Of a stretch of 64,000 nucleotides of DNA, positions 33,725-64,000 are shown in pieces. The position numbers and the translations under genes were made by a program. Every line of letters starts with the position of its first letter. Position 1 is the first letter of the stretch. Where the stretch lies: NCBI GenBank assembly GCA_021234155.1, contig JAJEKV010000588.1, positions 1 to 64,000 of the forward strand, read 5' to 3'. This DNA is from Isoetes taiwanensis. Taxonomy: Eukaryota > Streptophyta > Lycopodiopsida > Isoetales > Isoetaceae. The notes beneath the pieces are model-generated. The model was not told the origin of the DNA. It did no database searches and worked only from the letters and a program-made list of their open reading frames with translations.

Positions 33725-33830
33725 GGAGGAGGAGTAGGGGACCGATGTCCTTAGAGGAGGAGGAGGAGGAGGAAGCGGGGGATTCTTTGGAGATGTCCCC
33801 GGGAGGAAGAGGAGGAGGAGCATTTCGCTA
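33725..33830 (+). repeat. GGA-rich simple repeat
   Basis: Runs of GGAGGAGGAGGA and GAGGAAGAGGAGGAGGA, separated by GATTCTTTGGAGATGTCC. Simple-sequence DNA. Confidence 0.8.
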
Positions 33831-34740: not shown

Positions 34741-34869
34741 CTTCCTTTCGGGTGCCATTCGAAGCATCGCACGCCATTGGATTCCTCTCGTCGAGAGCTT
34801 TCCAATGAGTGGTGCTTTGGCACTATTTCGTTGCAGTTGCAGCCAACGTGATCGAACACTAAGAGTCTT

Positions 34870-35895: not shown

Positions 35896-35944
35896 ATTGG
35901 AATCCAGTCGAATTTGTACAGTCCCTCATAGCATAACCACTTGT

Positions 35945-36096
35945 AATATATATAAAATAATATGTCATATATATGACATATATATATAATATGTCACATA
36001 TCTGTTGTATATATGACATATATTATATGTCATATGAGATATATCATAATATATGTCATATGTCATATATCTCCTATATATGAGATACGTCATAAC
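35945..36096. repeat. AT-rich CATATATCATATGTC satellite, copy 2
   Basis: Nearly the same as 27731-27852 and in the same orientation, including CACATATCTGTTGTATATAT, ATATCTCCTATATATGAG and GATACGTCATAAC. It ends abruptly at 36096, where unrelated unique sequence begins. Confidence 0.85.
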
Positions 36097-38849: not shown

Positions 38850-39330
38850 ATGCAATGTGAGCCGTACAATCTTGGACCAAGGATTATGATCAATCTGGAC
38901 CGTAGGATCATGTAGGATATATCTAAAGCAATGTGAGCCGTAGGATCTCGGACCAACGGCCAGGATCAGATCCACCTGGACCGTAGGATCGCTTACATAT
39001 AATCGGTCACAAACTCCCAAGCCATCTGGGCCATAGGATACGTCCCAAAGCCATGTGAGCTACTCAGTACGCCATCAGTTAGATCCCTTGGCTCCTACCT
39101 CCAGGAGGTTTTGGATCTGCGGACTCACCTCTGCCCCCGGGCGCCTACCTGAGGTGCCAGGAATTCATGTATATCTTCCTTATCATAACATATATATGTT
39201 CTTATGTTTGTCCTCCTGAATCCGTCCTACGGCTCACGTTGGGACGTATCCTATGGCCCAGATGGCTTGGGAGTTTGTGACCGATTTCGGATCAACGACC
39301 GGATTCAGGAGGACAAACATAAGAACATAT
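38850..39330. mobile_element. Foldback (MITE-like) element with two nested inverted repeats
   Basis: Forty-five bases at 39003-39047 are the exact reverse complement of 39240-39284. A second pair, 31 bp at 39194-39224 and 39300-39330, is also perfect. Phrases like GACCGTAGGATC are repeated between 38870 and 38995. No ORF is present. The outer arm ends exactly where the Helitron array begins. Confidence 0.65.
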
Positions 39331-42201
39331 CTACTTACTTAAATTGTGTTTGGAGGGGTGTGTCCTCCTTTTTCCGGCCGCCGGTGGACATCGAAATCCG
39401 GCCAAAAAGCGAAATTTTGTGATCAGAAATTTGAAATCCGGCATGTGAAATTTTTAGGGCAAGGGTTGAGTGACATACGTTTTTTTCTCGGCTTTAACGG
39501 ATGGAATAATTTTTTGGGCTGGCTCCCCGCCATAGCCGGGAGTCACTGAAGCAGAGGAATCGCAATAAAGAGGAGTCGCTGAAGCAGATATTTTGAGCGG
39601 CCATTTTGGAATGACTATTCTTCCCTTTGCTTTCTTCTCTGCATCGAAATGGTTCTTGCTTGCAAGGATATCTAAGCGGTGATTTCTTACCGATTATTAG
39701 ACATGTTTTTTTATTAAACACCGTGGAGGCGTATTTTCCCACTATCCTCCATTCCGCTCGAAGAAGGCTCTAACGGATGGGATAGCGGGAAATTTGGATA
39801 GCGAGTTGGACTTCACATTCAACATCGGGTAGGCGATTGGTTTCTTTTAGGGTGGATTTTTGCAGTAAATTTCTTTGCTTCTCTTAACATATGCTCTTTC
39901 TTGAGGCAAAACCGAGAATACATAAGAAACAGGGTTTACAAACGACCCAATCTTTGGTCTGCAGTGGATCTCAAAATTTGCTTTACAGATTATTCCATTT
40001 CTTCTTATTTTATATTTGGCGACTGGGCAAGGAAGTCTCCGCGATTAGTTTCAGCTCCGGTAAGGTATGAGCGGTTGAAACTAAACCCCTAAGTCAAGGT
40101 ACATAATTGTTCTTTGAAAAGAAGATTAAGTAGGAATTATAAAGATGAAGTAGGTGGCGAGGTTTGGGTGTGGCAATCAATGTCACATTGTTCTGAAGTT
40201 ATGGCATATCAAGTTTTTAGGCGATATAGTAGAACATGCATGAAGTATGTGTGTTTGTACAATAAAAGTTTGCACTACATGAACTTTTTACCATCAATGT
40301 GTCACGATATATCGATTTAGCGAATATGAAAATTGCACAAAGATTGTGACTAGGTTCTTTTGTATGTACATTTTCTATTCTTGGAGATGGCGAGGCCAAT
40401 TTTAGGCCGCGGTAGTCTTCAAGGTCCGCATTCTTCATATTATGTTTTGCGACTTGCAATTTGAGCTATGGCACGGATGCCTTGCAACACCGCCTGTTTT
40501 GAGATTTGGTGCTATTAAGTCGTATCCATTTTTGCGGGGTTCATGCATCATATTGAGGTCAAAATCGTGATCCGGGGCCATTTTTTCTGGCGCTTACCCA
40601 ATGCTATATTACGATGTTGTATTATTAGAATCTAATTTTTTGAAAGGTTGCTTTGCCTTGAATTACGGAAAGCATCTACATATTACGATTTGATTAGCTA
40701 CATCTTCGAACTGTCTTGCTTTTCTTCAATACAAAATAGTTACTATTTTCTTACGCTATTGCATTTGTTGCCATTCTATGCCGTCTTATACGATTGTCTT
40801 ATATTTTGTTAACGAGATTTAAAGGCTTAAATTTCTTTGGTAAATGTAAGGTACGTCTGTCTATCGCATCATGTTGGAATATTGATTGATCTTCTACCAT
40901 TTTCAGAAATATAGATGCATCTAAAGGTTCGATACCTCAATATTAGTAAGACATGCCATGGCAAACTTGAAGGGCGGATGTCAGCGGTTTGGCCTTCACG
41001 CACGAAGTGCCACGCCACATGTTCTATCATAGAGGTATATCTCTACATCTATGCATTAATTGTTGAAAGATCTACGGGCCGATTGGATTAGATTGCGCCA
41101 TTCATCGGTTTATTCTTTGCAAAGCCCGACATGTTGTTATTTCATTATTACAATAGTAATTTCATGTTTGGTTTTGCGAGTCAAAGATGCCACACTTGGA
41201 TTTTATATCTTTGTAAGCAAAAGGATTGCTAAGGTACAATCTTTTCCTTTTTTTGGGGGTTAACAGTTGTGGCAAGAAAAGCCCGGGCCGGTAGTGGCAA
41301 GAAAAAGACCTACATGCTTGATTCATACCTTTCAAACAACTTAACATCTGTTTGTGTGCCCGCACATCCTCGACATAGTTTGACAACAAATATGATGCTC
41401 TTCAAGCTTGCTTTCAACAATCGGGCACATCCACGGCCGGGATCAAAATACAATGCTTGGATGCTAGAGATTGTTATCGAGCTATAGAGATTTTTTTGTA
41501 AATTTTTGTGATGAATGTGTTGCAACCTTTATAAGTCGTTGATTGAAGATGTTTGAAGATTGGAGATCATTTGGTGGCCTTAAAATAAAGATGGAGATCA
41601 AGGAAATATCGAAAATATATTATGATTGGTAATTCGAAACACATCAACAGCGCACATCAACAAAGCGATTCTATGACCATGATGCAATGCAAAAATGTAA
41701 TGAGAGGTTATGCAATGCAATACGTAATGAGAATTTATTTATGAGAATTTATTTATGAGAGGTTATTTTGAGAGATATTACCACAACTTCTTTGGCATGA
41801 ACCCCATTAAGAATACAACCCTGTCCCAAGTAAGGTCCATATTAACACACACACCACACACTTATGCAGCATCATGGCAACACAAGTGCATGTAGATTTG
41901 AGATGGACATTGATAAGGATCAATCTTACATTGAAGCCCTATATGAACATTGTCACGTATTTATGAGCAACGACATCGGGCACACATTTTGAGCATTGTT
42001 TTCTCTACTGAAATCCATGAACAAAGATGATACTGTCATTAGGGAATTTCAATAAAAAAAAATAATTACAAAAGCAAATAATGCCCATTCTTTCGAATAT
42101 CAACATGCGTCGTTGTCTAATTTGCATATATAGATGTTAAAAGGGCAAGTAAAGACTATCTCAGGACATTAGCCCGGCAACGCCGGGCACCCATTTACTA
42201 G
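39330..42201 (+). mobile_element. Helitron unit 1 (2.87 kb, different cargo)
   Basis: Begins TCTACTTACTTAAATTGTG directly after an A and shares the 5' 150 bp of the longer units (GGCCGCCGGTGGACATC, GCGAAATTTTGTGATCAG). The 3' end carries the hairpin GCCCGGC-AAC-GCCGGGC (42172-42188), then nine bases, then CTAG (42198-42201). These are hallmarks of a Helitron, which moves by rolling-circle replication and inserts between A and T. The interior differs from later units. One exon-like frame (39905-40092, with YKRPNLWSAVDLKICFTDYS and a GT donor near its end) has a faint F-box-protein look. No Rep or helicase motif is seen, so the unit is probably non-autonomous. Confidence 0.8.
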
Positions 42202-45200
42202 TCTACTTACTTAAAATCTACTTACTTAAAATGTGTCTTGGGGGGTGTGTCCTCTTTTTTCCGGCCGCCGGTGGACATCGGAATCCGGCAAAAAAGCGAA
42301 ATTTTGTGATCAGAAATTTGAAAATCCGGTGGGAGATAATTTTGGGCGTTAATTTTATTAATATCATTTTATTTAACTATATCCGCGGGTTACGCTAAAC
42401 CAGCTAATCATTCGGATCGATTCCCTTCCGACTTTCCATCATTATTCCCGAAGGAATGGCGTTATGTGCGACACCTTTCTCCATTGAGCGAGCTCATCTC
42501 ATCCGGCGACAAGCGGGTGATTCCTTAACCTATAGCGAAATTTTTGGGGCGGAGTTTTTGTTAGGGTTCTTTTTCTGTTTTGAGCCCACCATCCGGTGGT
42601 TTCGATCGGCCTTTGAAATGGTAAGAGGATTGGACAACCCAATATACCTCGAGAAGCGGCAAGCCAATTATCTCGAGGCGCAAAGAAAGATCGATGCCGT
42701 GTACAAGGCGTTCTCTCGCGAATCTTCATTTCCTGTAGGTTTAGGAGTGCATCGCCTAGAGGCAACTTAGAGGCGGCGACGGTAGATTACGAGTTTAGGG
42801 TTATTTCGGTGAGGGTTTTTCGGGCTTCTTACGTTTCTTTATCTACGTTTTTGCGAAGTCAATACTATTTTTGGATGATCCACCGGGCTTACCGGTCATC
42901 CACCTTCCATCATTGTTTGCCGTGGAAAATCTCAGAGCAAGTTGAGCGGTCGCATGAGCATAGCCGGCCAAGGCGATCTTTGAAGCTATTAACCCATTGG
43001 CACAATCTAGAGGAATCATTTGGTGGGCAAATAGAACCCTAACATCCCGAATACTATTTTATTTGTCTTGCATTTCTGTAAAAGCGCAAGATTTTTATTT
43101 GCTTGAAGCCCGGCGGTGTGGACTCCATCAATGGAGTTGGATCATTGTGGCTATACAACGTTTACTAGAAGAGATTATTCCAAAATAGATTGGACGAAAA
43201 GACTTTGAGCGAGATGGAGAAGTTGAAGCATGGGCAGCGACCTGGCGACATTGAGGTGGTATATCCTTGCTATGTTTGAAGGCGGCTCTATTTTATTGGA
43301 GGCACAAAATTTTAAAACACGGGATCTTTCTTTGCATAGAAGAGGAGGTGCATTCTTTTTTCCCAGTTGAAATCAAAATCGATTCTTTGCCTATCTAACA
43401 CTAAGCGATGTAGGGTTTTTTACAGCGTAATTTGAAAAATAAATGGACCAATTTGGCTTCAATCCACCTTTCATCGTTTTTTTTCTTCCAAATGTATGCT
43501 TCGAGATTGTTACCGCCTAGGTTTTTAGCGCCTAGATGGCGGGTTTTACGTTGGTTCTTGCAAGTTTATTGCCTTTGCCTTCTCTTAGTGTGCTTTTATA
43601 GGCACGAAGCGAAGGAACACATTTTCTCTCAAAACCGCAGAGCGTTAAGAAGAAAGCGACTAGGTGCGAGACAAGGTCATTAGTTGATTTTCCTTTTGAA
43701 AACATAAAAGGATAAGCGAAAAACGTGGTAGCGAGGGGTGGGTATTGCTATGTTCTTTCCTTTTTAACAATATGGGTCGTGAGATCTGGACTAAAACAAA
43801 GTTTGTTTGTGTGGCAATACACATTTTGCAATTTGAACATTTTGCTCATTCAAGGGCACCATGATGAGCCCAATATTGTAATACTTTACGGAACACCCAC
43901 TTCAAATGCCTCTTTATCGATAATTAGGGAACAACGTGCATTAGATGTTTTTATACCTAGATGTGCTAGGCATAGAGCAAGAATTTGCAGGGCCTGCCAA
44001 GCTCAAGTTTATATTCTAATCTACTTGCAAATGTTACACGGATCCTCTCCTATTGCGAAAGACAACGTATTGAGCAAGGTGTTTGGTATGCTTCCTTCAT
44101 CTTCCTTTTTCCAAAGAAGAGTCTCCCTTTCTAAACAAACAAGTTGTCTCTTCCATGTGCCAAGAACAAAAGTCGTATATGTTGTCATACAAGCAATGTC
44201 GTCTTTTATATTTTGATTCAATAAAAAGCGTGTTCGATTCTTTGTATCCAATCATCATTCAGAATGAGTTGCGATTTTCGAAATACAGGTTGTATGACAT
44301 ATTACAGCCAAGTTCGAGGAGGAATGCCAAGGATGCCAAGAACGATTATCATCGACGAGCAAAAAGCCTGAGAACTTCTATGTCCGACTCTTTCATTCTT
44401 TCTTTGCCAAGAGCGGTATATAGAAAAAGGGCATACTTTTGAAGGAGCATATTATATGGGCACTTTTAACGTAACATATAATCTTAATTGATGCCGTGGT
44501 TGTGAAGCACGTGATATACGTGTCTATATGGTATTTGCAAAATCATACACCTACATAAACGGCAATATCACGAAACGAAGGAGTTAAAACCTCTTTGAGG
44601 TCTTTTGGTGCAAAGACAGTCCCATATGTCTTCCCTGTTCAAATATGGTAAGAGTCTTAAGCATAACTTTGAGGAAGGAAGCGGAATTTAAGTGAACAGT
44701 TAGCATCGGTAGGAAAAAATACATGAATGAATAGAAGATCAGCGAGCAAAACGCACTAATTTCCAAACTCTTTAACACGTGATGATGATGCAGTACGTTA
44801 ACCGAAGAACCTTTCCTAAATGCACATTGCCATAAGAAGACAAGAGAAAGCAGAAAGGGAGGGTTCATGAAATCAAGTAAACACAATGTTTACCTTCAAG
44901 GGCGGTGTGAACCTCCTAATTATTCGATTCGTTTGCAAAAGAAATCTATTGCAAAAGAAGTTATTTTTATTTTGCTTTAAAATCTTCTACTCTTTGGAAT
45001 TATTAAGTATTTTGCACACGTTCCATTGATTTAAAAGACAAAACTTGCATAACTTTCATGGCACATATTGTATGTCTTAGGCAATAAAAAGAGGATCTTG
45101 AAATTAGATATATGCATGAAGAATGGGCCAAAAAGGTTGCTCACATAGGCATAAAGGTATCACTTAAGACAATTTGGACGAGGAGCACAAAGGGTAATAA

Positions 45201-46403
45201 TCTCTAGCATATAATGAACAAGCATAAGCATTTGAAGATTTTGTCAATGTTGTGACAAGACATACATAAGCACTCCATGTAGTTAGTTAATGCAAGTGCA
45301 TCTATTCCAATTACAAGCATTGGAAAGAAAATACACAATACATGCCCGACAAAACCAAACGCAGGTAATGTTAACCAAAAGGAAAACACACAAGCTCATT
45401 TAGGTCCAAGATTGTCAAGCACATATGTGGCAAATAATTGCAATTAGTTTATTGTCGTCTTTAACATTTTAATACCATTATTATATCATTTAAAAATATT
45501 GAGAGTATGTTTAAGAACATTTTGTGTAACATAAGTTTTCGCCATAGGGAATTCTTTGTAGTGGACAACACACAATGATATGTAGTCATGTTGGAAAGGG
45601 CTAACTTATTTCAAACAATAATGTTCACACAACAAATATTGGCATTTGTGACATGGTCAACAACTTTTTGAATTATACACTATTTAGTCTTAGCGATCAT
45701 ATGTGAGATCTTGAGCACGAGGTTTTGGGTTCACTTCCCATATTTTCACTTTAAGGAGCGGGTACATTAAGCCCCCCATGTTCTTCTTTAACATTGTTTT
45801 CTCTACTAAAATCCATCCTTTAAATGCAAAGTTAATACATTGATGATACTCTTAGTAGAAAACTTCAACCGACAACAAAAACAATTAGAAAAGCACATAA
45901 TGCTTACTCTTGCAAACATGTTTTTAGTGACATTTTTGGATTTACAGTAATTTTTCCACCGTTTCATATAGTTTTGAAAGATTACGGACATTTTGGATAA
46001 TGGCATTTTGATGAGCATGAAGTATACCTAGAGTGATATCTCAATAGAGATAGAGGTAAGATAGAGGTAATGGAGAAACCTTTACATTATGTAACTCAAA
46101 TTGCTTACTGATTTTAACAGGTGTGGTTTTATGATTGTTGATAGAGCACTTTGTGGCGTGATGTCATGTCGATTATTTGGGGAACTCATTGTTGTTTTGG
46201 AAGGAGATTTTTACTTCCTTGAAGTACACTTATATATAGAATCATGTTGGGGTCATTATAAATATGCAAGTGATGAAACATATCCATTCTTGCAAGCATC
46301 AACTTTGTAGTGTTATTGGAAGTTGCACAACTAGGCGTTAAATGCCAAGTAAGAATACAAGCCACGACATTTGGCCCGGCAGCGCTTGGCACCACGTTAC
46401 TAG
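42202..46403 (+). mobile_element. Helitron unit 2 (4.2 kb)
   Basis: Starts immediately after the CTAG of unit 1 and ends CTAG at 46400-46403. The first 15 bases (TCTACTTACTTAAAA) are present twice, at 42202 and 42217. The terminal hairpin at 46374-46390 is degraded (GCCCGGCAGCGCTTGGC). It carries the captured gene (ATG at 42618), but CAG/CTG sites are widely altered and its frames are broken. The last 1.4 kb is almost identical to the other units. Confidence 0.85.
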
Positions 46404-49400
46404 TCTACTTACTTAAAATGTGTCTTGGGGGGTGTGTCCTCTTTTCGGCCGCCGGTGGACATCGAATCAGGCAAAAAGCGAAATTTTGTGATCGAGAATT
46501 TGAAAATCCGGTGGGAGATAATTTTGGCGTTAATTTTATTAATATCATTTTATTTAACTATATCCATGGGTTACGCTTAAACCAGCTAATCATTCGGATC
46601 GATTCCCTTCCCAGCTTTCCATCATTATTCCCCTGGGAATGAGGCGTTATGTGCAGCACCTTTCTCCATTGAGCAGAGCTCATCTCATCCGGCAAAGCGG
46701 GGTGATTCCTTAACCTATAGCGAAATTTTGGGGGGCGGAGTTTTTTTTTGTTAGGGTTCTTTTTCTGGTTTCAGAGCCCACCATCCAGTGGTTTCTGATC
46801 AGCCTTTGAAATGGCAGAGGATTGGACAACCCAATATACCTCAGGAAACGGCAAGCCAATTATCTCGTGAAGCGCCCAAGATCATCGATGCCGGTACAAG
46901 AGGCGTTCTCTCGCGAATCTTCATTTCTGTAGGTTTAGGAGTGCATCGCCTAGAGGCAACTTAGAGCGGGGGCGTGATTACGGGTTTAGGGTTATTTCAG
47001 CTGAGGGTTTTTTCAGGCTTCTTACGTTTCTTTATCTCTGTTTTGCAGAAGTCCAATACTATTTTGCAGATGATCCACCAGGCTTACCAGTCATCCACCT
47101 TCCATCATTGTTTGCCGTGGAAAATCTCGAGAGCAAGTTGAGCGGTCGCATGAGCATAGCCGCCAAGGCGATCTTTGAAGCTATTAACCCATTGGCACAA
47201 TCTAGAGGAATCATTTGGTGGGCAAATAGAACCCTAACATCTGAATACTATTTTATTTGTCTTGCATTTTACAGAAACTGCAAGATTTTTATTTGCTTGA
47301 AGCCGAGCAGTGTGGACTCCATCAATGGAGTTGGATCATTGTGGCTATACAACGTTTACTAGAAGAGATTATTCCAAAAAATAGATTGGACCCGAAAGAC
47401 TTTGAGCGAGATGGAGAAGTTGAAGCATGGGCAGCGATCTGCGGCATTGAGGTGGTATATCCTTGCTATGTTTGAAGGCGCTCTATTTTATTGGAGGCAC
47501 AAAAATTTTAAAACACGGGATCTTTGCATAGAAGAGGAGGTGCATTCTTTTTTCCCAGTTGAAATCAAAATCGATTCTTTGCCTATCTAACACTAACTGA
47601 TGTAGGGTTTTCTGGTGCGAGAATTTGAAAAATAAATGGACCAATTTGGCTTCAATCCACCTTTCATCGCTTTTTTTTTCTTCCAAATGTATGCTTCCGA
47701 GATTGTTACCGCCTAGGTTTTAGCGCCTAGATGGCGGTTTTACGTTGGTTCTTGCAAGTTTATTGCCTTTGCCTTCTCTCTTAACCGTGTGCTTTTATAG
47801 GCACGGCGGAAGGAACACATTTTCTCTCAAAACCGCAGAAGGCGTAAGAAGAAAAGCGGCTAGGTGCGAGACAAGGTCATTAGTTGATTTTCCTTTTTGA
47901 AAACATAAAAAGGATAGAGCGTAAACGTGGTAGCGGGGTGGGTATTGCTATGTTCTTTCCTTTTTTAACAATATGGTGCAGAGATCGGACTAAAACAAAG
48001 TTTGTTTTGTGTGGCAACACATTTTTTGCAATTTGAACATTTTGCTCATTCAAGGGCACCATGATGAGCCCAATATTGTAATACTTTACGGAACACCCAC
48101 TTCAAATGCCTCTTTATCGATAATTAGGGGAACAAGCGTGCATTAGATGTTTTTATACCTAGATGTGCTAGGCATAGAGCAAGAATTTGCGGGCCCCGCC
48201 AAGCTCAAGTTTATATTCTAATCTACTTGCAAATGTTACACGGATCCTCTCTATTATTGCAAAGACAACGTATTGAGCAAGGTGTTTGGTATGCTTCCTT
48301 CATCTTCCTTTTTTTCACAAAGAAGAGTCTCCTTTCTAAACAAACAAGTTGTCTCTTCCATGTGCCAAGAACAAGTTTGTATATGTTGTCATACAAGCAA
48401 GAATCGTCTTTTATATTTTGATTCAATAAAAACGTGTTCGATTCTTTGTATCCAATCATCATTGAGAATGAGTTGCGATTTGAGTATACGGTTGTATGAC
48501 ATATTTCGCCAAGTTCGAGGAGGAATGCCAAGGATGCCAAGAACATTATCATACGAGCAAAAAGCCTGTAACTTCTATGTCCGGCTCTTTCATTCTTTCT
48601 TTGCCAAGAGCGTTATATAGAAAAGGGCATACTTTTGAAGGAGCATATTATATGGGCACTTTTAACGTAACATATAATCTTAATTGATGCCGTGGTTGTG
48701 AAGCTCGTGATATACGTGGTCTATATGGTATTTGCAAAATCATACACCTACATAAACGGCAATATCCGAAGCGAAGGAGTTAAAACTTCTTTGAGGTCTT
48801 TTTTGGTGCAAAGACAGGTCCCATATGTCTTCCCCTGTTCAAATATGGTAAGAGTCTTAAGCATAACTTTGAGGAAGGAAGCGGAATTTAAGTGAAGCAG
48901 TTAGCATCGTGGAAAAAAATACATGAATAGAGAAGATCACCGAGCAAAACGCACTAATTTCCAAACTCTTTAACACGCGTGTGATGATGTCCGGTACGTC
49001 AACCAAGAACCTTTCCCTAAATGCACATTGCCATAAGAAGACAAAGAGAAAAAAAGCGAGAAAGGGAGGGTTCATGAAATCAAGTAAACACAATGTTTAC
49101 CTTCAAGGACGGTGTGAACCTCCTAATTATTCGATTCGTTTGCAAAAGAAATCTATTGCAAAAAGTTATTTTATTTTTGCTTTAAAATCTTCTACTCTTT
49201 GGAGTTGTTCGTATTTTGCACATATTCTATTGAGTTAAACGGCAAAAACTTGCATAACTGTCATGGCACATATTGTACGTCTTAAGCAATAAAAAGAGGA
49301 TCTTGAAATTAGATATATGCATGAAGAATGGGCCAAAGGTTGTTCACATAGGTGTAAAAGTATCACTTAAGACAATTGGATGAGGAGCACAAAGGATAAT

Positions 49401-50605: not shown

Positions 50606-53600
50606 TCTACTTACTTAAAATGTGTCTTGGGGGGGTGTGTCCTCTTTTTCGACGGTAGGTGGACATCGAATCCGCAAAAAGCGAAATTTTGTGATCGAAA
50701 TTTGAAAATCCGATTGGGGAGATAATTTTGGGCGTTAATTTTATTAATATCATTTTATTTAACTATATCCCGCGGTTTCGCTAAACCGGCTAATCATTCG
50801 GATCGATTCCCTTCCCAGCTTTCCATCATTATTCCCCTGGGAATGAGGCGTTATGTGCAGCACCTTTCTCCATTGAGCAGAGCTCATCTCATCCGGCAGC
50901 AAGCAGGTGATTCCTTAACCTATAGCGAAATTTTGGGGCGGAGTTTTTGTTAGGGTTCTTTTTACTTTTTTGAGCCCACCATCCGGTGGTTTCCGATCCA
51001 GCCCTTTGAAATGGGCGAGGATTGGACAACCCAATATACCTCAGGAAGCGGCAAACCAATTATCTGGGAAGCGCCCGGAAAGATCGATGCCGGTACAAGG
51101 CGTTCTCTCATGAATCTTCATTTTCAGAGGTTTAGGAGTGCATCGCCTAGAGGCAACTTAGAGCGAGGCGGCACGCAGAGATTACGAGTTTAGGGTTATT
51201 TCAGGCGAGGGGTTTTTCGGGCTTCTTACGTTTCTTTATCTCCGTTTTTCGCGAAGTCCAATACTATTTTGCGGATGATCCACCGGGCTTACGGTCATCC
51301 ACCTTCCATCATTGTTTGCCATTGGAAAATCTCGTGAGCAAGTTGAGCAGATCGCATGAGCATAGCCGGCCAAGACGATCTTTGAAGCTATTAACCCATT
51401 GGCACAATCTAGAGGAATCGCTGGTGGGCAAATAGAACCCTAACATCTGAATACTATTTTATTTGTCTTGCATTTTACAGAAACTGCAAGATTTTTATTT
51501 GCTTGAAGCCGAGCAGTGTGGACTCCATCAATGGAGTTGGATCATTGTGGCTATACAACGTTTACTAGAAGAGATTATTCCAAAAATAGATTGGACGAAA
51601 GACTTTGAGCGAGATGGAGAAGTTGAAGCATGGGCACTGATCTGCGGCATTGAGGTGGTATATCCTTGCTATGTTTGAAGACGCTCTATTTTATTGGAGG
51701 CACAAAAATTTTAAAACCTGGGATGCTGCTGCATAGAAGAGGAGGTGCATTCTTTTTTTCCCAGTTGAAATCAAAATCGATTCTTTGCCTATCTAACACT
51801 AACTGATGTAGGGTTTTTACAGGTGCAGAATTTGAAAAATAAATGGACCAATTTGGCTTCAATCCACCTTTCATCGTTTTTTTTCTTCCAAATGTATGCT
51901 TCCCGAGATTGTTACCGCCTAGGTTTTTAGCGCCTAGATGGCAGGTTTTACGTTGGTTCTTGCAAGTTTATTGCCTTTGCCTTCTCTTAACCGTGTGCTT
52001 TTATAGGCACGAAGCAGAAGGAACACATTTTCTCTCAAAACCGCAGAGCGTTAAGAAGAAAGCAGCTAGGTCTGAGACAAGGTCATTAGTTGATTTTCCT
52101 TTTGAAAACATAAAAAGGATAGAGCAGAAACGTGGTAAGCAGGGGTGGGTATTGCTATGTTCTTTCCTTTTTAACAATATGGCTGACAGATCTGGACTAA
52201 AACAAAGTTTGTTTGTGTGGCAATACACATTTTTGCAGCTGAACATTTTGCTCATTCAAGGGCACCATGATGAGCCCAATATTGTAATACTTTCTGGAAC
52301 ACCCACTTCAAATGCCTCTTTATCTGATAATTAGGGAACAACGTGCATTAGATGTTTTTTTATACCTAGATGTGCTAGGCATAGAGCAAGAATTTGCGTG
52401 CCCCGCCAAGCTCAAGTTTATATTCTAATCTACTTGCAAATGTTACACCAGATCCTCTCCTATTGCAGCACAACGTATTGAGCAAGGTGTTTGGTATGCT
52501 TCCTTCATCTTCCTTTTTTCACAGCAAGAGTCTCCCTTTCTAAACAAACAAGTTGTCTCTTCCATGTGCCAAGAACAAGCTGTATATGTTGTCATACAAA
52601 CAGAAGTACGTCTTTTATATTTTGATTCAATAAAAAACGTGTTCGATTTTTTTGTATCCAATCATCATTAGAATGAGTTGCGTTTCGAAATACGGTTGTA
52701 TGACATATTCGCCAAGTTCGGAGGAATGCCAAGGATGCCAAGAAAAAGATTATCACGAGCAAAAAGCACGAACTTCTATGTCCAGCTCTTTTCATTCTTT
52801 CTTTGCCAAGAGCAATTATATAGAAAAAGGGCATACTTTTTGAAGGAGCATATTATATGGGCACTTTTAACGTAACATATAATCTTAATTGATGCCGTGG
52901 GTTGTGAAGCCCTGTGATATCCGTGGTCTATATGGTATTTGCAAAATCATACACCTACATAAACGGCAATATCTCGAAACGAAGGAGTTAAAACCCGCTT
53001 TGAGGTCTTTTGGTGCAAAAAGCAGGTCCCATATGTCTTCCCCTGTTCAAATATGGTAAGAGTCTTAAGCATAACTTTGAGGAAGGAAGGAATTTAAGTG
53101 AAAGTTAGCATCGGTTGGAAAAAATACATGAATAGAGAAGATCATCGAAAAAAAAAACGCACTAATTTCCAAACTCTTTAACACGTGTGATGATGTCCGG
53201 GTCATCCAACTGAAGAACCTTTCCCTAAATGCACATTGCCATAAGAAGACAAGAGAGAAAACAGTAAAGGAGGGTTCATGAAATCAAGTAAACACAATGT
53301 TTACCTTCAAGGACGGTGTGAACCTCCTAATTATTCGATTCGTTTGCAAAAGAAATCTATTGCAAAAGAAGTTATTTTATTTTTGCTTTAAAATCTTCTA
53401 CTCTTTGGAATTATTCAGTATTTTGCACATCACGTTCCATTGATTTAAAAGACAAAACTTGCATAACTTTCATGGCACATACTGTACGTCTTAGGCAATA
53501 AAAAAAGGATCTTGAAATTAGATATATGCATGAAGAATGGGCCAAAGGTTGCTCACATAGGCATAAAAGTATCACTTAAGACAACTGGACGAGGAGCACA

Positions 53601-54809
53601 AAGGGTAATAATCTCTAGCATATAATGAACAAGCATAAGCATTTGAAGATTTTGTCAATGTTGTGACAAGACATACATAAGCACTCCATGTAGTTAGTTA
53701 ATGCAAGTGCATCTATTCCAATTACAAGCATTGGAAAGAAAATACACAATACATGCCTGACAAACCAAACGTGGTAATGTTAACCAAAAGGAAAACACAC
53801 AAGCTCATTTAGGTCCAAGATTGTCAAGCACATATGTGGCAAATAATTGCAATTAGTTTATTGTCGTCTTTAACATTTTAATACCATTATTATATCATTT
53901 AAAAATATTGAGAGTATGTTTAAGAACATTTTGTGTAACATAAGTTTTCGCCATAGGGAATTCTTTGTAGTGGACAACACACAATGATATGTAGTCATGT
54001 TGGAAAGGGCTAACTTATTTCAAACAATAATGTTCACACAACAAATATTGGCATTTGTGACATGGTCAACAACTTTTTGAATTATACACTATTTAGTCAC
54101 GCGATCATATGTGAGATCTTGAGCACAGGTTTTGGGTCTGCTTCCCATATTTTCACTTTAAGGAACGGGTACATTCGCCCCCCCATGTTCTTACGCAACA
54201 TTGTTTTCTCTACTAAAATCCATCCTTTAAATGCAAAGTTAATACATTGATGATACTCTTAGTAGAAAACTTCAACCAGCAACAAAAACAATTAGAAAAG
54301 CACATAATGCTTACTCTTGCAAACATGTTTTTAGCTGACATTTTTGGATTTACCGTAATTTTTCCACTTCGTTCATATAGTTTTGAAAGATTACGGACAT
54401 TTTGGATAATGGCATTTTGATGAGCATGAAGTATACCTAGAGTGATATCTCAATAGAGATAGAGGTAAGATAGAGGTAATGGAGAAACCTTTACATTATG
54501 TAACTCAAATTGCTTACAGATTTTAACAGGTGGTTTTATGATTGTTGATAGAGCACTTTGTGACGTGATGTCATGTGCAGATTATTTGGGGAACTCATTG
54601 TTGTTTTGGAAGGAGATTTTTACTTCCTTGAAGTACACTTATATATAGAATCATGTTGGGGTCATTATAAATATGCAAGTGATGAAACATATCCATTCTT
54701 GCAAGCATCAACCTGTAGTGTTATTGGAAGTTGCACAACTAGACGTTAAATGCCAAGTAAGAATACAAGCCACGACATTAGCCGGCAACGCCGGGCACAC
54801 GTTTACTAG
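50606..54809 (+). mobile_element. Helitron unit 4 (4,204 bp)
   Basis: Abuts unit 3; ends CTAG at 54806-54809 with a hairpin lacking one C (54781-54796). The captured gene's first exon is cleanest here: ATG 51011, MGEDWTTQYTSGSGKPIIWE, GT donor at 51093. The middle part (about 51.43-52.64 kb) matches unit 6 almost base for base, including a 163-codon frame. Confidence 0.87.
51843..52334 (+). CDS. 163-codon frame of the captured gene, unit 4 copy
   Basis: Opens at ATG 51843 with MDQFGFNPPFIVFFLPNVCF, passes a hydrophobic segment (RWFLQVYCLCLLLTVCFYRH), a basic part (KKKAARSETRSLVDFPFENI) and ends LNILLIQGHHDEPNIVILSG ... LSDN, stop. An acceptor (TTTTTACAG) lies just upstream, so the true start may be an earlier exon in another frame. 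Units 2, 3 and 5 break this frame by indels. The function is unknown; the hydrophobic segment may be intron or UTR translated by chance, whereas the C-terminal half looks coding. Confidence 0.35.
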   Translation: MDQFGFNPPFIVFFLPNVCFPRLLPPRFLAPRWQVLRWFLQVYCLCLLLTVCFYRHEAEGTHFLSKPQSVKKKAARSETRSLVDFPFENIKRIEQKRGKQGWVLLCSFLFNNMADRSGLKQSLFVWQYTFLQLNILLIQGHHDEPNIVILSGTPTSNASLSDN

Positions 54810-57800
54810 TCTACTTACTTAAAATGTGTCTTGGGGGTGTGTCCTCTTTTTCCTACCACGGTGGACATCGAATCCCAAAAAAAGCGAAATTTTGTGATCA
54901 GAAATTTGAAAATCCGGTGGGAGATAATTTTGGGCGTTAATTTTATTAATATCATTTTATTTAACTATATCCGCGGGTTACGCTAAACCAGCTAATCATT
55001 CGGATCTATTCCCTTCCCAGCTTTCCATCATTATTCCCCTGGGAATGAGGCGTTATGTGCAGCACCTTTCTCCATTGAGCAGAGCTCATCTCATCCGGCG
55101 CAAAGAAGGGTGATTCCTTAACCTATAGCGAAATTTTGGGGCCGGAGTTTTTTTGTTAGGGTTCTTTTTCTGTTTTCAGAGCCCACCATCCAGTGGTTTC
55201 TGATCAGCCTTTGAAATGGCAGAGGATTGGACAACCCAATATACCTCAGGAAACGGCAAGCCAATTATCTCAGGAAGCGCCAGCAGCATCTGATGCCAGG
55301 TACAAGACGTTCTCTCCGCGAATCTTCATTTCCTGTAGGTTTAGGAGTGCATCGCCTAGAGGCAACTTAGAGCAGGGGCAGACAGCAGATTACCAGGTTT
55401 AGGGTTATTTCAGCTGAGGGTTTTTTCAGGCTTCTTACGTTTCTTTATCTCTGTTTTGCAGAAGTCCAATACTATTTTGCAGATGATCCACCAGGCTTAC
55501 CAGTCATCCACCTTCCATCATTGTTTGCCGTGGAAAATCTCAGGAGCAAGTTGAGCAGATCGCATGAGCATAGCCGGCCAAGACGATCTTTGAAGCTATT
55601 AACCCATTGGCACAATCTAGAGGAATCGCTGGTGGGCAAATAGAACCCTAACATCTGAATACTATTTTATTTGTCTTGCATTTTACAGAAACTGCAAGAT
55701 TTTTATTTGCTTGAAGCCGAGCAGTGTGGACTCCATCAATGGAGTTGGATCATTGTGGCTATACAACGTTTACTAGAAGAGATTATTCCAAAAATAGATT
55801 GGACGAAAGACTTTGAGCGAGATGGAGAAGTTGAAGCATGGGCACCGACCGCGGCATTGAGGTGGTATATCCTTGCTATGTTTGAAGACGCTCTATTTTA
55901 TTGGAGGCACAAAAATTTTAAAACCTGGGATGCTGCTGCATAGAAGAGGAGGTGCATTCTTTTTTTCCCAGTTGAAATCAAAATCGATTCTTTGCCTATC
56001 TAACACTAACGATGTAGGGTTTTACAGTGCGTGTAATTTGAAAAATAAATGGACCAATTTGGCTTCAATCCACCTTTCATCGCTTTTTTTCTTCCAAATG
56101 TATGCTTCCCGAGATTGTTACCGCTTAGGTTTTTTAGCCTAGATGGCGTGTTTTACGTTGGTTCTTGCAAGTTTATTGCCTTTGCCTTCTCTTAACCGTG
56201 TGCTTTTATAGGCACGCGGCGTAAGGAACACATTTTCTCTCAAAACCGCAGAGCGTTAAGAAGAAAGCAGCTAGGTCTGAGACAAGGTCATTAGTTGATT
56301 TTCCTTTTGAAAACATAAAAAGGATAGAGCGTAAACGTGGTAGCGTGGGTGGGTATTGCTATGTTCTTTCCTTTTTAACAATATGGTGGACGATGATCCG
56401 GACTAAAACAAAGTTTGTTTGTGTGGCAATACACATTTTTGCAGCTGAACATTTTGCTCATTCAAGGGCACCATGATGAGCCCAATATTGTAATACTTTC
56501 TGGAACACCCACTTCAAATGCCTCTTTATCTGATAATTAGGGAACAACGTGCATTAGATGTTTTTTTATACCTAGATGTGCTAGGCATAGAGCAAGAATT
56601 TGCAGGCCTGCCAAGCTCAAGTTTATATTCTAATCTACTTGCAAATGTTACACCAGATCCTCTCCTATTGCAGCACAACGTATTGAGCAAGGTGTTTGGT
56701 ATGCTTCCTTCATCTTCCTTTTTTCACAGCAAGAGTCTCCCTTTCTAAACAAACAAGTTGTCTCTTCCATGTGCCAAGAACAAGCTGTATATGTTGTCAT
56801 ACAAACAGAAGTACGTCTTTTATATTTTGATTCAATAAAAAACGTGTTCGATTCTTTGTATCCAATCATCATTCAGAATGAGTTGCAGTTTCAGAAGTAC
56901 AGTTGTATGACATATTCTGGCCAAGTTCAGAGGAATGCCAAGGATGCCAAGAACAGTATCATACGAGCAAAAAGCACAGAACTTCTATGTCCAGCTCTTT
57001 CATTCTTTCTTTGCCAAGAGCAGTATATAGAAAAGGGCATACTTTTGAAGGAGCATATTATATGGGCACTTTTAACGTAACATATAATCTTAATTGATGC
57101 CGTGGTTGTGAAGCCTGTGATATCTGTGTCTATATGGTATTTGCAAAATCATACACCTACATAAACTGGCAATATCTGAAACGAAGGAGTTAAAACCTGC
57201 TGAGGTCTTTTGGTGCAAAGACAGTCCCATATGTCTTCCCTGTTCAAATATGGTAAGAGTCTTAAGCATAACTTTGAGGAAGGAAGCGGAATTTAAGTGA
57301 ACAGTTAGCATCAGCGGAAAAAATACATGAATAGAGAAGATCACTGAGCAAAAACGCACTAATTTCCAAACTCTTTAACACGTGTGATGATGTCTGGTCT
57401 GTCAACTGAAGAACCTTTCCCTAAATGCACATTGCCATAAGAAGACAAGAGAGAAAACAGAAAGGGAGGGTTCATGAAATCAAGTAAACACAATGTTTAC
57501 CTTCAAGGACGGTGTGAACCTCCTAATTATTCGATTCGTTTGCAAAAGAAATCTATTGCAAAAGAAGTTATTTTATTTTTGCTTTAAAATCTTCTACTCT
57601 TTGGAATTATTCGTATTTTGCACACGTTCCATTGATTTAAAAGACAAAAACTTGCATAACTTTCATGGCACATATTGTATGTCTTAGGCAATAAAAAGAG
57701 GATCTTGAAATTAGATATATGCATGAAGAATGGGCCAAAGGTTGCTCACATAGGCATAAAGGTATCACTTAAGACAACTGGACGAGGAGCACAAAGGGTA

Positions 57801-58999
57801 ATAATCTCTAGCATATAATGAACAAGCATAAGCATTTGAAGATTTTGTCAATGTTGTGACAAGACATACATAAGCACTCCATGTAGTTAGTTAATGCAAG
57901 TGCATCTATTCCAATTACAAGCATTGGAAAGAAAATACACAATACATGCCTGACAAACCAAACGTGGTAATGTTAACCAAAAGGAAAACACACAAGCTCA
58001 TTTAGGTCCAAGATTGTCAAGCACATATGTGGCAAATAATTGCAATTAGTTTATTGTCGTCTTTAACATTTTAATACCATTATTATATCATTTAAAAATA
58101 TTGAGAGTATGTTTAAGAACATTTTGTGTAACATAAGTTTTCGCCATAGGGAATTCTTTGTAGTGGACAACACACAATGATATGTAGTCATGTTGGAAAG
58201 GGCTAACTTATTTCAAACAATAATGTTCACACAACAAATATTGGCATTTGTGACATGGTCAACAACTTTTTGAATTATACACTATTTAGTCACGCGATCA
58301 TATGTGAGATCTTGAGCAATGTGTTTTGGGTCCGCTTCCCATATTTTCACTTTAAGGAACGGGTACATTCGCCCCCATGTTCTTACGCAACATTGTTTTT
58401 CTACTAAAATCCATCCTTTAAATGCAAAGTTAATACATTGATGATACTCTTAGTAGAAAACTTCAACAAAGAACAAAAACAATTAGAAAAGCACATAATG
58501 CTTACTCTTGCAAACATGTTTTTAGTCGACATTTTGGATTTATCAGTAATTTTTCCACTTCGCTCATATAGTTTTGAAAGATTACGGACATTTTGATAAT
58601 GGCATTTTGATGAGCATGAAGTATACCTAGAGTGATATCTCAATAGAGATAGAGGTAAGATAGAGGTAATGGAGAAACCTTTACATTATGTAACTCAAAT
58701 TGCTTACTGATTTTAATGTGTGGTTTTATGATTGTTGATAGAGCACTTTGTGACGGATGTCATGTGCGCATTATTTGGGGAACTCATTGTTGTTTTGGAA
58801 GGAGATTTTTACTTCCTTGAAGTACACTTATATATAGAATCATGTTGGGGTCATTATAAATATGCAAGTGATGAAACATATCCATTCTTGCAAGCATCAA
58901 CCTGTAGTGTTATTGGAAGTTGCACAACTAGACGTTAAATGCCAAGTAAGAATACAAGCCACGACATTAGCCCGGCAACGCCGGGCACACGTTTACTAG
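54810..58999 (+). mobile_element. Helitron unit 5 (4,190 bp)
   Basis: Abuts unit 4; hairpin at 58970-58986, CTAG at 58996-58999. The 5' 500 bp match unit 6 closely. Splice signals of the captured gene are well kept here (acceptors TTTTGCAG at 55461 and TTTTACAG before 55689). No replication protein is found. Confidence 0.87.
55216..55943 (+). pseudogene. Captured host gene, 5' exons (example in unit 5; same in units 2-7)
   Basis: A start codon at 55216 (equivalents at 42618, 46811, 51011, 59411 and 63614) opens AEDWTTQYTSG and leads to a GTAC donor. After acceptor TTTTGCAG, an exon from 55462 reads VQYYFADDPPGLPVIHLPSL to a GT donor at 55632. After acceptor TTTTACAG the next exon begins KLQDFYLLEAEQCGLHQWSW, then LLEEIIPKIDWTKDFERDGE and LRWYILAMFEDALFYWRHKN, stopping at 55941. 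The last two exons join in phase. Unit 4 has the cleaner first exon. Intact introns show capture as genomic DNA. The protein is unknown to me. Because units differ by indels, no single copy gives an unbroken frame from ATG to stop. Confidence 0.55.
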
Positions 59000-60243
59000 T
59001 CTACTTACTTAAAATGTGTCTTGGGGGGGTGTGTCCTCTTTTTTCCGGCCGCCGGTGGACATCGGAATCCGGCAAAAAAGCGAAATTTTGTGATCAGAAA
59101 TTTGAAAATCCGGTGGGAGATAATTTTGGGCGTTAATTTTATTAATATCATTTTATTTAACTATATCCGCGGGTTACGCTAAACCAGCTAATCATTCGGA
59201 TCTATTCCCTTCCCAGCTTTCCATCATTATTCCCCTGGGAATGAGGCGTTATGTGCAGCACCTTTCTCCATTGAGCAGAGCTCATCTCATCCGGCAGCAA
59301 GCAGGTGATTCCTTAACCTATAGCGAAATTTTGGGGCCGGAGTTTTTTTGTTAGGGTTCTTTTTCTGTTTTCAGAGCCCACCATCCAGTGGTTTCTGATC
59401 AGCCTTTGAAATGGCAGAGGATTGGACAACCCAATATACCTCAGGAAACGGCAAGCCAATTATCTCAGGAAGCGCCAGCAGCATCTGATGCCAGGTACAA
59501 GACGTTCTCTCCGCGAATCTTCATTTCCTGTAGGTTTAGGAGTGCATCGCCTAGAGGCAACTTAGAAGGGGGCGCATGCAGCCATTACTGTGTTTAGGGT
59601 TATTTCACCGAGGGTTTTTTCGGGCTTCTACGTTTCTTTATCTCTGCTTTTGCGAAGTCCAATACTATTTTGCGAGATGATCCACCAGCTTACCTACCAT
59701 CCACCTTCCATCATTGTTTGCCGTGGAAAATCTCAGAGCAAGTTGAGCGATCGCATGAGCATAGCCCGCCAAGACGATCTTTGAAGCTATTAACCCATTG
59801 GCACAATCTAGAGGAATCATTTGGTGGGCAAATAGAACCCTAACATCTCGAATACTATTTTATTTGTCTTGCATTTTCTGTAAAACGCAAGATTTTTATT
59901 TGCTTGAAGCCGAGCAGTGTGGACTCCATCAATGGAGTTGGATCATTGTGGCTATACAACGTTTACTAGAAGAGATTATTCCAAAAATAGATTGGACGAA
60001 AGACTTTGAGCGAGATGGAGAAGTTGAAGCATGGGCACTGATCTGCGGCATTGAGGTGGTATATCCTTGCTATGTTTGAAGACGCTCTATTTTATTGGAG
60101 GCACAAAAATTTTAAAACCTGGGATGCTGCTGCATAGAAGAGGAGGTGCATTCTTTTTTTCCCAGTTGAAATCAAAATCGATTCTTTGCCTATCTAACAC
60201 TAACTGATGTAGGGTTTTTACAGGTGCAGAATTTGAAAAATAA

Positions 60244-60735
60244 ATGGACCAATTTGGCTTCAATCCACCTTTCATCGTTTTTTTTCTTCCAAATGTATGC
60301 TTCCCGAGATTGTTACCGCCTAGGTTTTTAGCGCCTAGATGGCAGGTTTTACGTTGGTTCTTGCAAGTTTATTGCCTTTGCCTTCTCTTAACCGTGTGCT
60401 TTTATAGGCACGAAGCAGAAGGAACACATTTTCTCTCAAAACCGCAGAGCGTTAAGAAGAAAGCAGCTAGGTCTGAGACAAGGTCATTAGTTGATTTTCC
60501 TTTTGAAAACATAAAAAGGATAGAGCAGAAACGTGGTAAGCAGGGGTGGGTATTGCTATGTTCTTTCCTTTTTAACAATATGGCTGACAGATCTGGACTA
60601 AAACAAAGTTTGTTTGTGTGGCAATACACATTTTTGCAGCTGAACATTTTGCTCATTCAAGGGCACCATGATGAGCCCAATATTGTAATACTTTCTGGAA
60701 CACCCACTTCAAATGCCTCTTTATCTGATAATTAG
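60244..60735 (+). CDS. 163-codon frame of the captured gene, unit 6 copy
   Basis: Identical in protein sequence to the frame at 51843-52334, 8.4 kb away and two units earlier. Its C-terminal half (from KPQSVKKKAARSE to LSDN) is the most protein-like part. Directly downstream the next frames of the same gene follow in order. Same reservations as for the unit 4 copy. Confidence 0.35.
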   Translation: MDQFGFNPPFIVFFLPNVCFPRLLPPRFLAPRWQVLRWFLQVYCLCLLLTVCFYRHEAEGTHFLSKPQSVKKKAARSETRSLVDFPFENIKRIEQKRGKQGWVLLCSFLFNNMADRSGLKQSLFVWQYTFLQLNILLIQGHHDEPNIVILSGTPTSNASLSDN

Positions 60736-61227
60736 GGAACAACGTGCATTAGATGTTTTTTTATACCTAGATGTGCTAGGCATAGAGCAAGAATTTGCAG
60801 GCCTGCCAAGCTCAAGTTTATATTCTAATCTACTTGCAAATGTTACACCAGATCCTCTCCTATTGCAGCACAACGTATTGAGCAAGGTGTTTGGTATGCT
60901 TCCTTCATCTTCCTTTTTTCACAGCAAGAGTCTCCCTTTCTAAACAAACAAGTTGTCTCTTCCATGTGCCAAGAACAAGCTGTATATGTTGTCATACAAA
61001 CAGAAGTACGTCTTTTATATTTTGATTCAATAAAAAACGTGTTCGATTCTTTGTATCCAATCATCATTCAGAATGAGTTGCAGTTTCAGAAGTACAGTTG
61101 TATGACATATTCTGGCCAAGTTCAGAGGAATGCCAAGGATGCCAAGAACGATTATCATCACGAGCAAAAAGCCTGGAACTTCTATGTCCGGCTCTTTCAT
61201 TCTTTCTTTGCCAAGAGCGTTATATAG
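60713..61227 (+). pseudogene. Captured gene, 3' exons or shifted frames (unit 6)
   Basis: Two consecutive frames: 60713-60943, with REQRALDVFLYLDVLGIEQE and LLLQHNVLSKVFGMLPSSSF, then 60964-61227, with VRLLYFDSIKNVFDSLYPII, RNAKDAKNDYHHEQKAWNF and FFAKSVI, stop. Unit 5 has the first frame unchanged. The frames overlap the preceding 163-codon frame at its end, so these are either exons with tiny introns or one frame broken by indels. No catalytic motif is recognised. Confidence 0.4.
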
Positions 61228-63208
61228 AAAAGGGCATACTTTTGAAGGAGCATATTATATGGGCACTTTTAGCGTAACATATAATCTTAATTGATGCCGA
61301 GTGGTTGTGAAGCCCTGTGATATCGGTGTGTCTATATGGTATTTGCAAAATCATACACCTACATAAAGCGGCAATATCCGGAAACGAAGGAGTTAAAACC
61401 TGCTTTGAGGTCTTTTGGTGCAAAGGCAGGTCCCATATGTCTTCCCCTGTTCAAATATGGTAAGAGTCTTAAGCATAACTTTGAGGAAGGAAGCGGAATT
61501 TAAGTGAACAGTTAGCATCAGTGGAAAAAATACATGAATAGAAGATCACTGAGCAAAAACGCACTAATTTCCAAACTCTTTAACACGTGTGATGATGTCT
61601 GGTCTGTCAACTGAAGAACCTTTCCCTAAATGCACATTGCCATAAGAAGACAAGAGAGAAAACAGAAAGGGAGGGTTCATGAAATCAAGTAAACACAATG
61701 TTTACCTTCAAGGACGGTGTGAACCTCCTAATTATTCGATTCGTTTGCAAAAGAAATCTATTGCAAAAGAAGTTATTTTATTTTTGCTTTAAAATCTTCT
61801 ACTCTTTGGAATTATTCGTATTTTGCACACGTTCCATTGATTTAAAAGACAAAAACTTGCATAACTTTCATGGCACATATTGTATGTCTTAGGCAATAAA
61901 AAGAGGATCTTGAAATTAGATATATGCATGAAGAATGGGCCAAAGGTTGCTCACATAGGCATAAAGGTATCACTTAAGACAACTGGACGAGGAGCACAAA
62001 GGGTAATAATCTCTAGCATATAATGAACAAGCATAAGCATTTGAAGATTTTGTCAATGTTGTGACAAGACATACATAAGCACTCCATGTAGTTAGTTAAT
62101 GCAAGTGCATCTATTCCAATTACAAGCATTGGAAAGAAAATACACAATACATGCACGAAAACCAAGCGTGGTAATGTTAACCAAAAGGAAAACACACAAG
62201 CTCATTTAGGTCCAAGATTGTCAAGCACATATGTGGCAAATAATTGCAATTAGTTTATTGTCGTCTTTAACATTTTAATACCATTATTATATCATTTAAA
62301 AATATTGAGAGTATGTTTAAGAACATTTTGTGTAACATAAGTTTTAAGCCATAGGGAATTCTTTGTAGTGGACAACACACAATGATATGTAGTCATGTTG
62401 GAAAGGGCTAACTTATTTCAAACAATAATGTTCACACAACAAATATTGGCATTTGTGACATGGTCAACAACTTTTTGAATTATACACTATTTAGTCAGCG
62501 ATCATATGTGAGATCTTGAGCATGAGGTTTTGGGTCCGCTTCCCATATTTTCACTTTAAGGAGCGGGTACATTAAGCCCCCATGTTCTTCACGCCAACAT
62601 TGTTTTCTCTACTAAAATCCATCCTTTAAATGCAAAGTTAATACATTGATGATACTCTTAGTAGAAAACTTCAACCAGACAACAAAAACAATTAGAAAAG
62701 CACATAATGCTTACTCTTGCAAACATGTTTTAGGTGACATTTTTGGATTCATCAGTAATTTTTCCACCGTTCATATAGTTTTGAAAGATTACGGACATTT
62801 TGGATAATGGCATTTTGATGAGCATGAAGTATACCTAGAGTGATATCTCAATAGAGATAGAGGTAAGATAGAGGTAATGGAGAAACCTTTACATTATGTA
62901 ACTCAAATTGCTTACAGATTTTAACAGGTGGTTTTATGATTGTTGATAGAGCACTTTGTGACGTGATGTCATGTGCAGATTATTTGGGGAACTCATTGTT
63001 GTTTTGGAAGGAGATTTTTACTTCCTTGAAGTACACTTATATATAGAATCATGTTGGGGTCATTATAAATATGCAAGTGATGAAACATATCCATTCTTGC
63101 AAGCATCAACCTGTAGTGTTATTGGAAGTTGCACAACTAGACGTTAAATGCCAAGTAAGAATACAAGCCACGACATTAGCCCGGCAACGCCGGGCACACG
63201 TTTACTAG

Positions 63209-64000
63209 TCTACTTACTTAAAATGTGTCTTGGGGGGGTGTGTCCTCTTTTTTCCGGCCGCCGGTGGACATCGGAATCCGGCAAAAAAGCGAAATTTTGT
63301 GATCAGAAATTTGAAAATCCGGTGGGAGATAATTTTGGGCGTTAATTTTATTAATATCATTTTATTTAACTATATCCGCGGGTTACGCTAAACCAGCTAA
63401 TCATTCGGATCTATTCCCTTCCCAGCTTTCCATCATTATTCCCCTGGGAATGGCGTTATGTCGCGACACCTTTCTCCATTGAGCGAGCTCATCTCATCCG
63501 GCGACAAGCGGGTGATTCCTTAACCTATAAGCGAAATTTTGGGGCGGAGTTTTTGTTAGGGTTCTTTTTACGTTTTTGAGCCCACCATCCGGTGGTTTCG
63601 ATCGGCCTTTGAAATGGCGGAGGATTGGACAACCCAATATACCTCGAGGGAAGCGGCAAGCCAATTATCTCGGGAAGCGCCGGCGTATCGATGCGGTACA
63701 AGACGTTCTCTCCGCGAATCTTCATTTCCTGTAGGTTTAGGAGTGCATCGCCTAGAGGCAACTTAGAGCAGGGGCAGACAGCAGATTACCAGGTTTAGGG
63801 TTATTTCAGCTGAGGGTTTTTTCAGGCTTCTTACGTTTCTTTATCTCTGTTTTGCAGAAGTCCAATACTATTTTGCAGATGATCCACCAGGCTTACCAGT
63901 CATCCACCTTCCATCATTGTTTGCCGTGGAAAATCTCAGGAGCAAGTTGAGCAGATCGCATGAGCATAGCCGGCCAAGACGATCTTTGAAGCTATTAACC
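63209..64000 (+). mobile_element. Helitron unit 7 (5' end only; continues beyond the window)
   Basis: Begins TC directly after the CTAG of unit 6 and follows the other units to the window edge. Its first 500 bp carry CAG/CTG changes and the rest does not (clean from about 63.76 kb). The array therefore has no right-hand end in this window. Confidence 0.85.

Follow-up and report, generated by a model that had tools for sequence, protein, structure and literature searches.

How do Helitron transposons come to stand in a row, the last bases of one joined directly to the first bases of the next? The question is raised by the first 64,000 bases (the window) of C317, a 138,939-bp contig from the 1.66-Gb genome of Isoetes taiwanensis (JAJEKV010000588.1, assembly GCA_021234155.1), in which a preliminary description had recognized a head-to-tail array of Helitrons with exact CTAG/TC junctions, the slash marking the joint. 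Two routes have to be weighed - did a single element multiply by rolling-circle read-through, or did successive elements insert beside one already in residence? We lean towards a row of non-autonomous Helitrons that occupies a single A/T site, and that was formed by leftward insertion at the borders of resident elements together with local, stepwise growth of a block of one 4.2-kb unit.

All six junctions in the window are exact (...TTACTAG/TCTACTTACTTAAAA...), with zero intervening bases, at the coordinates originally assigned to them, and the outer left edge does follow an A. The right-hand end, which the preliminary description left to be sought, was located in the contig sequence past base 64,000; it falls at contig base 67412, where CTAG is followed by T. 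The full row consists of one element, U1, and six copies of the 4.2-kb unit, U2 to U7, in a total of 28 kb. Hence the tandem copies reported as five are real and number six in full, U7 being completed beyond the window, and the lengths given for U2 to U6 (4,190-4,209 bp) agree with those measured here. The array is head-to-tail throughout, with the correction that U1 is a different element, whose likeness to the 4.2-kb units in BLASTN comparisons is limited to its two ends, over about 112 bp (5') and about 120 bp (3'). The features of the locus are as follows:

39058-39224, minus strand: inverted, uninterrupted copy of the target site of the array, 166/167 identical to the joined flanks
39329, plus strand: host A of the A/T target, the matching host T being contig base 67413
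39330-42201, plus strand: U1, a different Helitron, 2,872 bp
42172-42188, plus strand: 3' hairpin of U1 found by folding, 7-bp stem and 3-base loop
42201/42202, 46403/46404, 50605/50606, 54809/54810, 58999/59000 and 63208/63209: junctions from U1/U2 to U6/U7
42202-42216, plus strand: extra 15-bp copy of the 5' end preceding U2
42202-46403, plus strand: U2, 4.2-kb unit, 4202 bp, body from 42217
46404-50605, plus strand: U3, 4.2-kb unit, 4202 bp
50606-54809, plus strand: U4, 4.2-kb unit, 4204 bp
54810-58999, plus strand: U5, 4.2-kb unit, 4190 bp
59000-63208, plus strand: U6, 4.2-kb unit, 4209 bp, patchwork of U4-like and U5-like tracts
63179-63195, plus strand: 3' hairpin of U6 found by folding, 7-bp stem and 3-base loop
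63209-64000, plus strand: U7, sixth 4.2-kb unit, part within the window, ending at contig base 67412

The row occupies its site as one element would. When its flanks are joined by script, the product agrees at 166 of 167 bases with part of the left flank in inverted orientation, and no base is gained or lost at A/T. This match to an empty site indicates that the whole row behaves as one canonical A/T Helitron insertion, with neither loss nor duplication. The host DNA at 39058-39329 is itself an inverted repeat, one arm of which is occupied by the array. At the doubled 5' end of U2, the body start is preceded by A; a comparable doublet, two A-preceded 5' ends 14 bp apart, lies at positions 40978893 and 40978907 of contig C907.

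The units, including U8r, a further 4.2-kb unit on the minus strand of C317, all begin with TCTACTTACTTAAA and terminate in CTAG. Of the 3' ends, those of U1 and U6 were folded, and both bear a 7-bp GC hairpin 9 bases upstream of CTAG (z of -4.6 and -3.7, respectively), as is known of Helitrons; the letters of the U2 and U4 ends reveal an altered stem. Ten open reading frames of the units, some of which are one frame met in several units, had no match in Pfam (E <= 0.1), for which reason the units are taken as non-autonomous, and they look like non-autonomous Helitrons. By the same comparison the term "cargo-bearing" has to be dropped, as no gene cargo was recognized in the 4.2-kb unit as far as these ten frames against Pfam reach. 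Likewise, the 150 of 1,813 candidates scored on C317 included no match to PF14214. A potential source of transposase lies elsewhere, at C1018:33456295-33469735 (L023, L024), in the form of a 13,441-bp candidate for an autonomous RepHel element, with a 1,979-residue open frame comprising Helitron_like_N (PF14214, E 1.5e-57) and PIF1 (PF05970, E 2.8e-78) domains; its unity as one element was judged by there being no further exact 5' end inside the 13,441 bp. Its first 50 bp are 96% and its last 72 bp 89% identical to those of U6, and it may mobilize the units of the array. The candidate is itself flanked by CTAG/TC joints on both sides, and its right neighbor, of 3,536 bp, has the first 810 bp (97%) and the last 39 bp in common with it. 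Taken together, the TC start, the hairpin with CTAG end, the empty A/T site and a RepHel element with matching ends bear out the assignment of these units to the Helitrons.

The joints recur throughout the genome. Counting 5' ends as the exact 13-base TCTACTTACTTAA and 3' ends as the exact 16-base GGCACACGTTTACTAG, a definition by which diverged ends are missed, we found 1,008 5' ends, with A before 694, CTAG before 273, another G before 19 and, by subtraction, C or T before 22. Thus, roughly one counted 5' end in four is joined directly to another Helitron. Outside CTAG contexts, A precedes 694 of 735 5' ends and G 19 of 735. The 3' ends number 1,143, with T next in 1,082 and TCTAC next in 215. 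Random neighboring bases would yield about four joints (1008/256; 1082/256), and the reversed-pattern controls returned zero for the CTAG joint and zero for three 3' patterns. Joints are present in contigs of 22-53 Mb too.

The partners at these joints are mostly different elements. We compared 4-kb arms on either side of 18 joints, taken as every fifth of the 92 that lie outside C317 among the listed joints, one joint near a contig end (C783) being swapped for the next (C890). At 17 of the 18, neighboring arms lacked a common match of at least 500 bp, the longest being 420 bp at 80% (L011), and at the other (L022) the arms are alike over 1,249 bp at 95%; among non-adjacent arm pairs, 305 of 306 were without a match of at least 500 bp. 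The different insides at 17 of 18 joints suggest that joints mostly arise from insertion beside a resident Helitron rather than from read-through of one element. For joints between different partners, that of U1 with U2 included, one-element read-through is excluded because it cannot link two different elements. U1 also has an independent existence: three near-full-length copies, 4.7-5.2% from U1, were found on other contigs (40 of 956 candidates scored) in the arrangement A/TC...CTAG/T, with no Helitron joint at either edge and with flanking letters that differ over the 30 bases compared. Solo copies with A/T flanks, which had been proposed as a check, therefore exist for U1, whereas a full-length 4.2-kb copy outside C317 was not found among the 40 of 916 candidates scored. 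Interior pieces of the 4.2-kb unit do recur elsewhere at 70-98% identity, those listed being of about 0.06-1.1 kb, and two of four fetched loci sharing such pieces (L026, L028) have matching 3' ends; in its interior the unit seems to be a patchwork that other elements have as well.

These observations can be accommodated by a mechanism in which new copies of this Helitron group would often integrate precisely where a resident Helitron begins or ends. The resident's 5' end, with its A/TC, would be the most economical site, since there the incoming TC meets the host A and the incoming CTAG meets the resident TC. Rows would thereby extend leftwards with exact CTAG/TC joints, the A staying at the far left, and U1, at the left edge, would have arrived last. 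The RepHel transposase would likely bind or nick resident 5' ends, the nick serving as the target. At C317, one 4.2-kb element would have given rise to the local six-copy block in steps, via unequal exchange between head-to-tail copies and perhaps with a rolling-circle dimer as the first homotypic step; recombination mixed the copies. The insertion order, the nick model and the step making the first homotypic dimer are the inferred parts of this scheme.

The internal history of the block bears on its last steps. Pairwise, U2 to U7 and U8r differ by 2.9-6.5% substitutions (243 transitions, 159 transversions). In the seven-unit alignment, private substitutions number 52 in U2, 49 in U3, 27 in U4, 18 in U5, 6 in U6, 72 in U7 and 39 in U8r, an unevenness that is marked among U2 to U7 (chi-square 80.8, p 6e-16). 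The same alignment has 139 informative sites, and of its 9,591 site pairs, 5,218 conflict with a single tree. Incompatible neighboring sites number 42, where 2,000 shuffles gave a mean of 75 and never so low a value, and U6 alternates between U4-like and U5-like states in long tracts, making 69 runs, where the mean of 5,000 shuffles was 136 and none went that low; these exchange tests use one alignment and treat sites as independent. The low incompatibility of neighbors and the tracts of U6 are what unequal exchange or conversion among the units would leave behind. Since no full-length copy was found off the contig among the 40 of 916 candidates scored, the block probably grew locally, and tandem amplification of the 4.2-kb unit at this site is supported. 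The sequences thus point to stepwise growth of the homotypic block, its copies having been shuffled by recombination. Tandem arrays homogenized by exchange between units, and large copy numbers in long arrays, are features of Helitron-derived satellites. The patchwork tracts display the former; the latter is not seen, copy number here amounting to six plus the inverted U8r, with no other full-length copy among the 40 of 916 candidates scored.

A second head-to-tail row of three elements (L001, L002) lies 1.9 kb past the array, on the minus strand at C317:69282-79865. It contains U8r, the 5' end of which is joined to the 3' end of another element at 73496/73497, and a further CTAG/TC joint at 76593/76594; its outer 5' end at 79865 follows A, and its two outer elements are delimited solely by their ends. 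U8r diverges by 3.8% from U5 and U6 and by 6.0% from U2 and U7. In both rows together C317 has eight exact joints, five between 4.2-kb units and three between different elements.

The block might also owe its growth to unequal crossing-over alone, a chance dimer having expanded as an ordinary tandem repeat with no further transposition. This account of U2 to U7 is compatible with the insertion of elements beside residents, and we give it a standing only somewhat short of even. It would explain the patchwork units and the distribution of private changes, which are highest in U7, U2 and U3 and lowest in U6 and U5. However, the inverted U8r, situated in another row 1.9 kb away, falls within the same variation, which implies transposition or conversion nearby as well, and crossing-over leaves the 273 joints across the genome unexplained.

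A different course of insertion would place the incoming element at G/T, just behind the CTAG of a resident, so that rows extend rightwards. The junction letters would be identical, and there are maize lines with the left member of a pair only, a situation read most simply as later G/T insertion (PMC2267711). Against this, G precedes only 19 of the 735 5' ends outside CTAG contexts, so G/T is no ordinary target in this genome and the CTAG end would need to be recognized in its own right. The same comparison, 694 after A and 19 after G, favors A/TC over G/T as the site; as A precedes TC so consistently, growth on the 5' side fits the target rule without exception, and growth behind CTAG needs one. 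We therefore regard special insertion at G/T as unlikely.

Several considerations weigh against leftward growth by insertion at resident 5' ends. Insertion at G/T behind CTAG yields identical letters, so that the order of arrival rests on inference. The only published case with genotypes leans towards G/T, as the maize lines with the left element alone may reflect either later G/T insertion or clean loss of the right element (PMC2267711, in the parts covered). Of the 273 joints 18 were classified, all drawn from a list of 100, and the comparison would miss homotypic pairs of more than about 8 kb. Within this sample, adjacent and non-adjacent arm pairs have matches of at least 100 bp in 4 of 18 and 14 of 306 cases, of 300 bp in 2 of 18 and 2 of 306, and of 1,000 bp in 1 of 18 and 0 of 306, respectively; adjacent arms being more alike, the partners at joints are not wholly independent, and there is some excess of kin. 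The reversed controls gave 232 matches for the bare 13-mer, 87 for the pattern with A and 38 for that with G; chance may therefore account for some of the 1,008 5' ends, with the proviso that these controls overstate the background, all but 41 of the sites having A or CTAG before them. Finally, the preference is read from standing copies, and insertions at other places may have been selected against, which would inflate the share of joints. More tentative still is the suggestion that the transposase prefers resident Helitron 5' ends, the A/TC nick that starts transposition of the resident being captured by an incoming element; we consider it possible but doubtful.

In the preliminary description, the lack of an A at internal junctions was said to fit read-through or repeated insertion at an existing 3' end. 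As proof of read-through this is rejected, since canonical insertion at A/TC gives the same letters, A/TC...CTAG/TC...; the argument is insufficient alone, insertion at a 3' end keeps the low standing given above, and read-through may have made the first dimer. As an account of the whole of U2 to U7, rolling-circle read-through would have a circle with joined ends, or a missed CTAG stop, produce a linear multimer that was inserted once. Six exact-ended copies and the failure to find a full-length copy off C317 among the 40 of 916 candidates scored agree with this, and Helraiser circles with precise end joints are known (PMC5876387, in the parts covered). Yet copies made in this manner should be equally old, whereas their private substitutions span 6 to 72, and the seven units have in common the informative sites of which most pairs are incompatible. 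On these grounds a concatemer inserted once and unchanged since is at odds with the unequal private substitutions, and neither the joint of U1 with U2 nor the different-partner joints of the sample are explained. Read-through of the entire block is accordingly improbable in our estimate. Assembly artefact, for which one might cite the shortness of C317 and its having been judged without reads, is barely credible given units 2.9-6.5% apart with both transitions and transversions, single-base gaps of which 28 of 135 fall in homopolymers of at least 4, and a joint that recurs 273 times, contigs of 22-53 Mb included. Homopolymer error was likewise rejected as the main source of the differences between units, on account of the substitutions and the same proportion of one-base gaps.

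Other features of the window and genome may be recorded here. A degenerate, GAATCT-rich tandem repeat at window 34933-35879 has periods of about 21 and 31 bp among others. GC content is raised at window 28001-36000, where two 4-kb steps have 0.53 and 0.47 and the sequence to each side 0.38, and open frames overlap on both strands in this interval. The plant-type telomere repeat TTTAGGG is present in the genome, with 402 exact 28-base matches, overlaps counted.

Head-to-tail Helitrons are already known from bats, maize, other plants and a fungus; the following comparisons refer to the parts of each source that were covered. Du et al. (2008) described a maize pair with a CTAG/TC joint and offered two readings, insertion at the A/TC of a resident or at the GT behind the first element (PMC2267711). 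Like the joints seen here, that pair is exact, has G/T in place of A/T and unites partners with different contents; it is one pair, as against 273 joints genome-wide and a seven-member row in which one unit occurs six times. Tandem Helitrons of the bat Myotis lucifugus, in perfect head-to-tail arrangement, were read as tandem repeats (Pritham and Feschotte 2007, cited in PMC2267711 and PMC5876387); the perfect junctions are shared with the present case, in which 17 of 18 sampled joints have different insides. In a 2016 study (PMC4778049) such arrangements are reported as one source of new 3' ends, unlike here. For a tandem of three Helitrons in Metarhizium acridum, either repeated 5'-end insertion or rolling-circle replication has been offered as the origin (PMC5148889), and tandem insertions of truncated Helitrons are on record for plant centromeres (reference 24 of PMC5148889). 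Both have several Helitrons in a row, as here, in other hosts; the units here keep both ends. A KCS gene array of Populus has also been attributed to Helitrons (PMC13253262), which are thus proposed as array makers there too, but that array carries genes, and CTAG/TC joints are not described in the parts of PMC13253262 covered. In wheat, inverse polymerase chain reaction found no genomic tandem of one active Helitron (PMC13286980), which indicates that the head-to-tail habit is not general. We met no comparable genome-wide count of joints in the literature searched, key papers of which lie outside its coverage, and make no claim of absence. What is unusual in this genome is the genome-wide frequency of the joints and the six consecutive 4.2-kb copies.

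The choice between read-through and insertion beside a resident was left undecided in the bat and maize reports, as far as the covered parts of PMC2267711 go. The 273 exact joints, mostly with different partners in the sample, together with one homotypic block, offer a means of separating the two routes, through counts and through insertion polymorphism. Should resident ends prove to be a preferred target, clusters of Helitrons would stem from target choice and not from replication errors only. Self-targeting would then be a regular pathway in this genome, as 273 of the 1,008 counted 5' ends would attest, and composite rows such as that of C317 could later move jointly.

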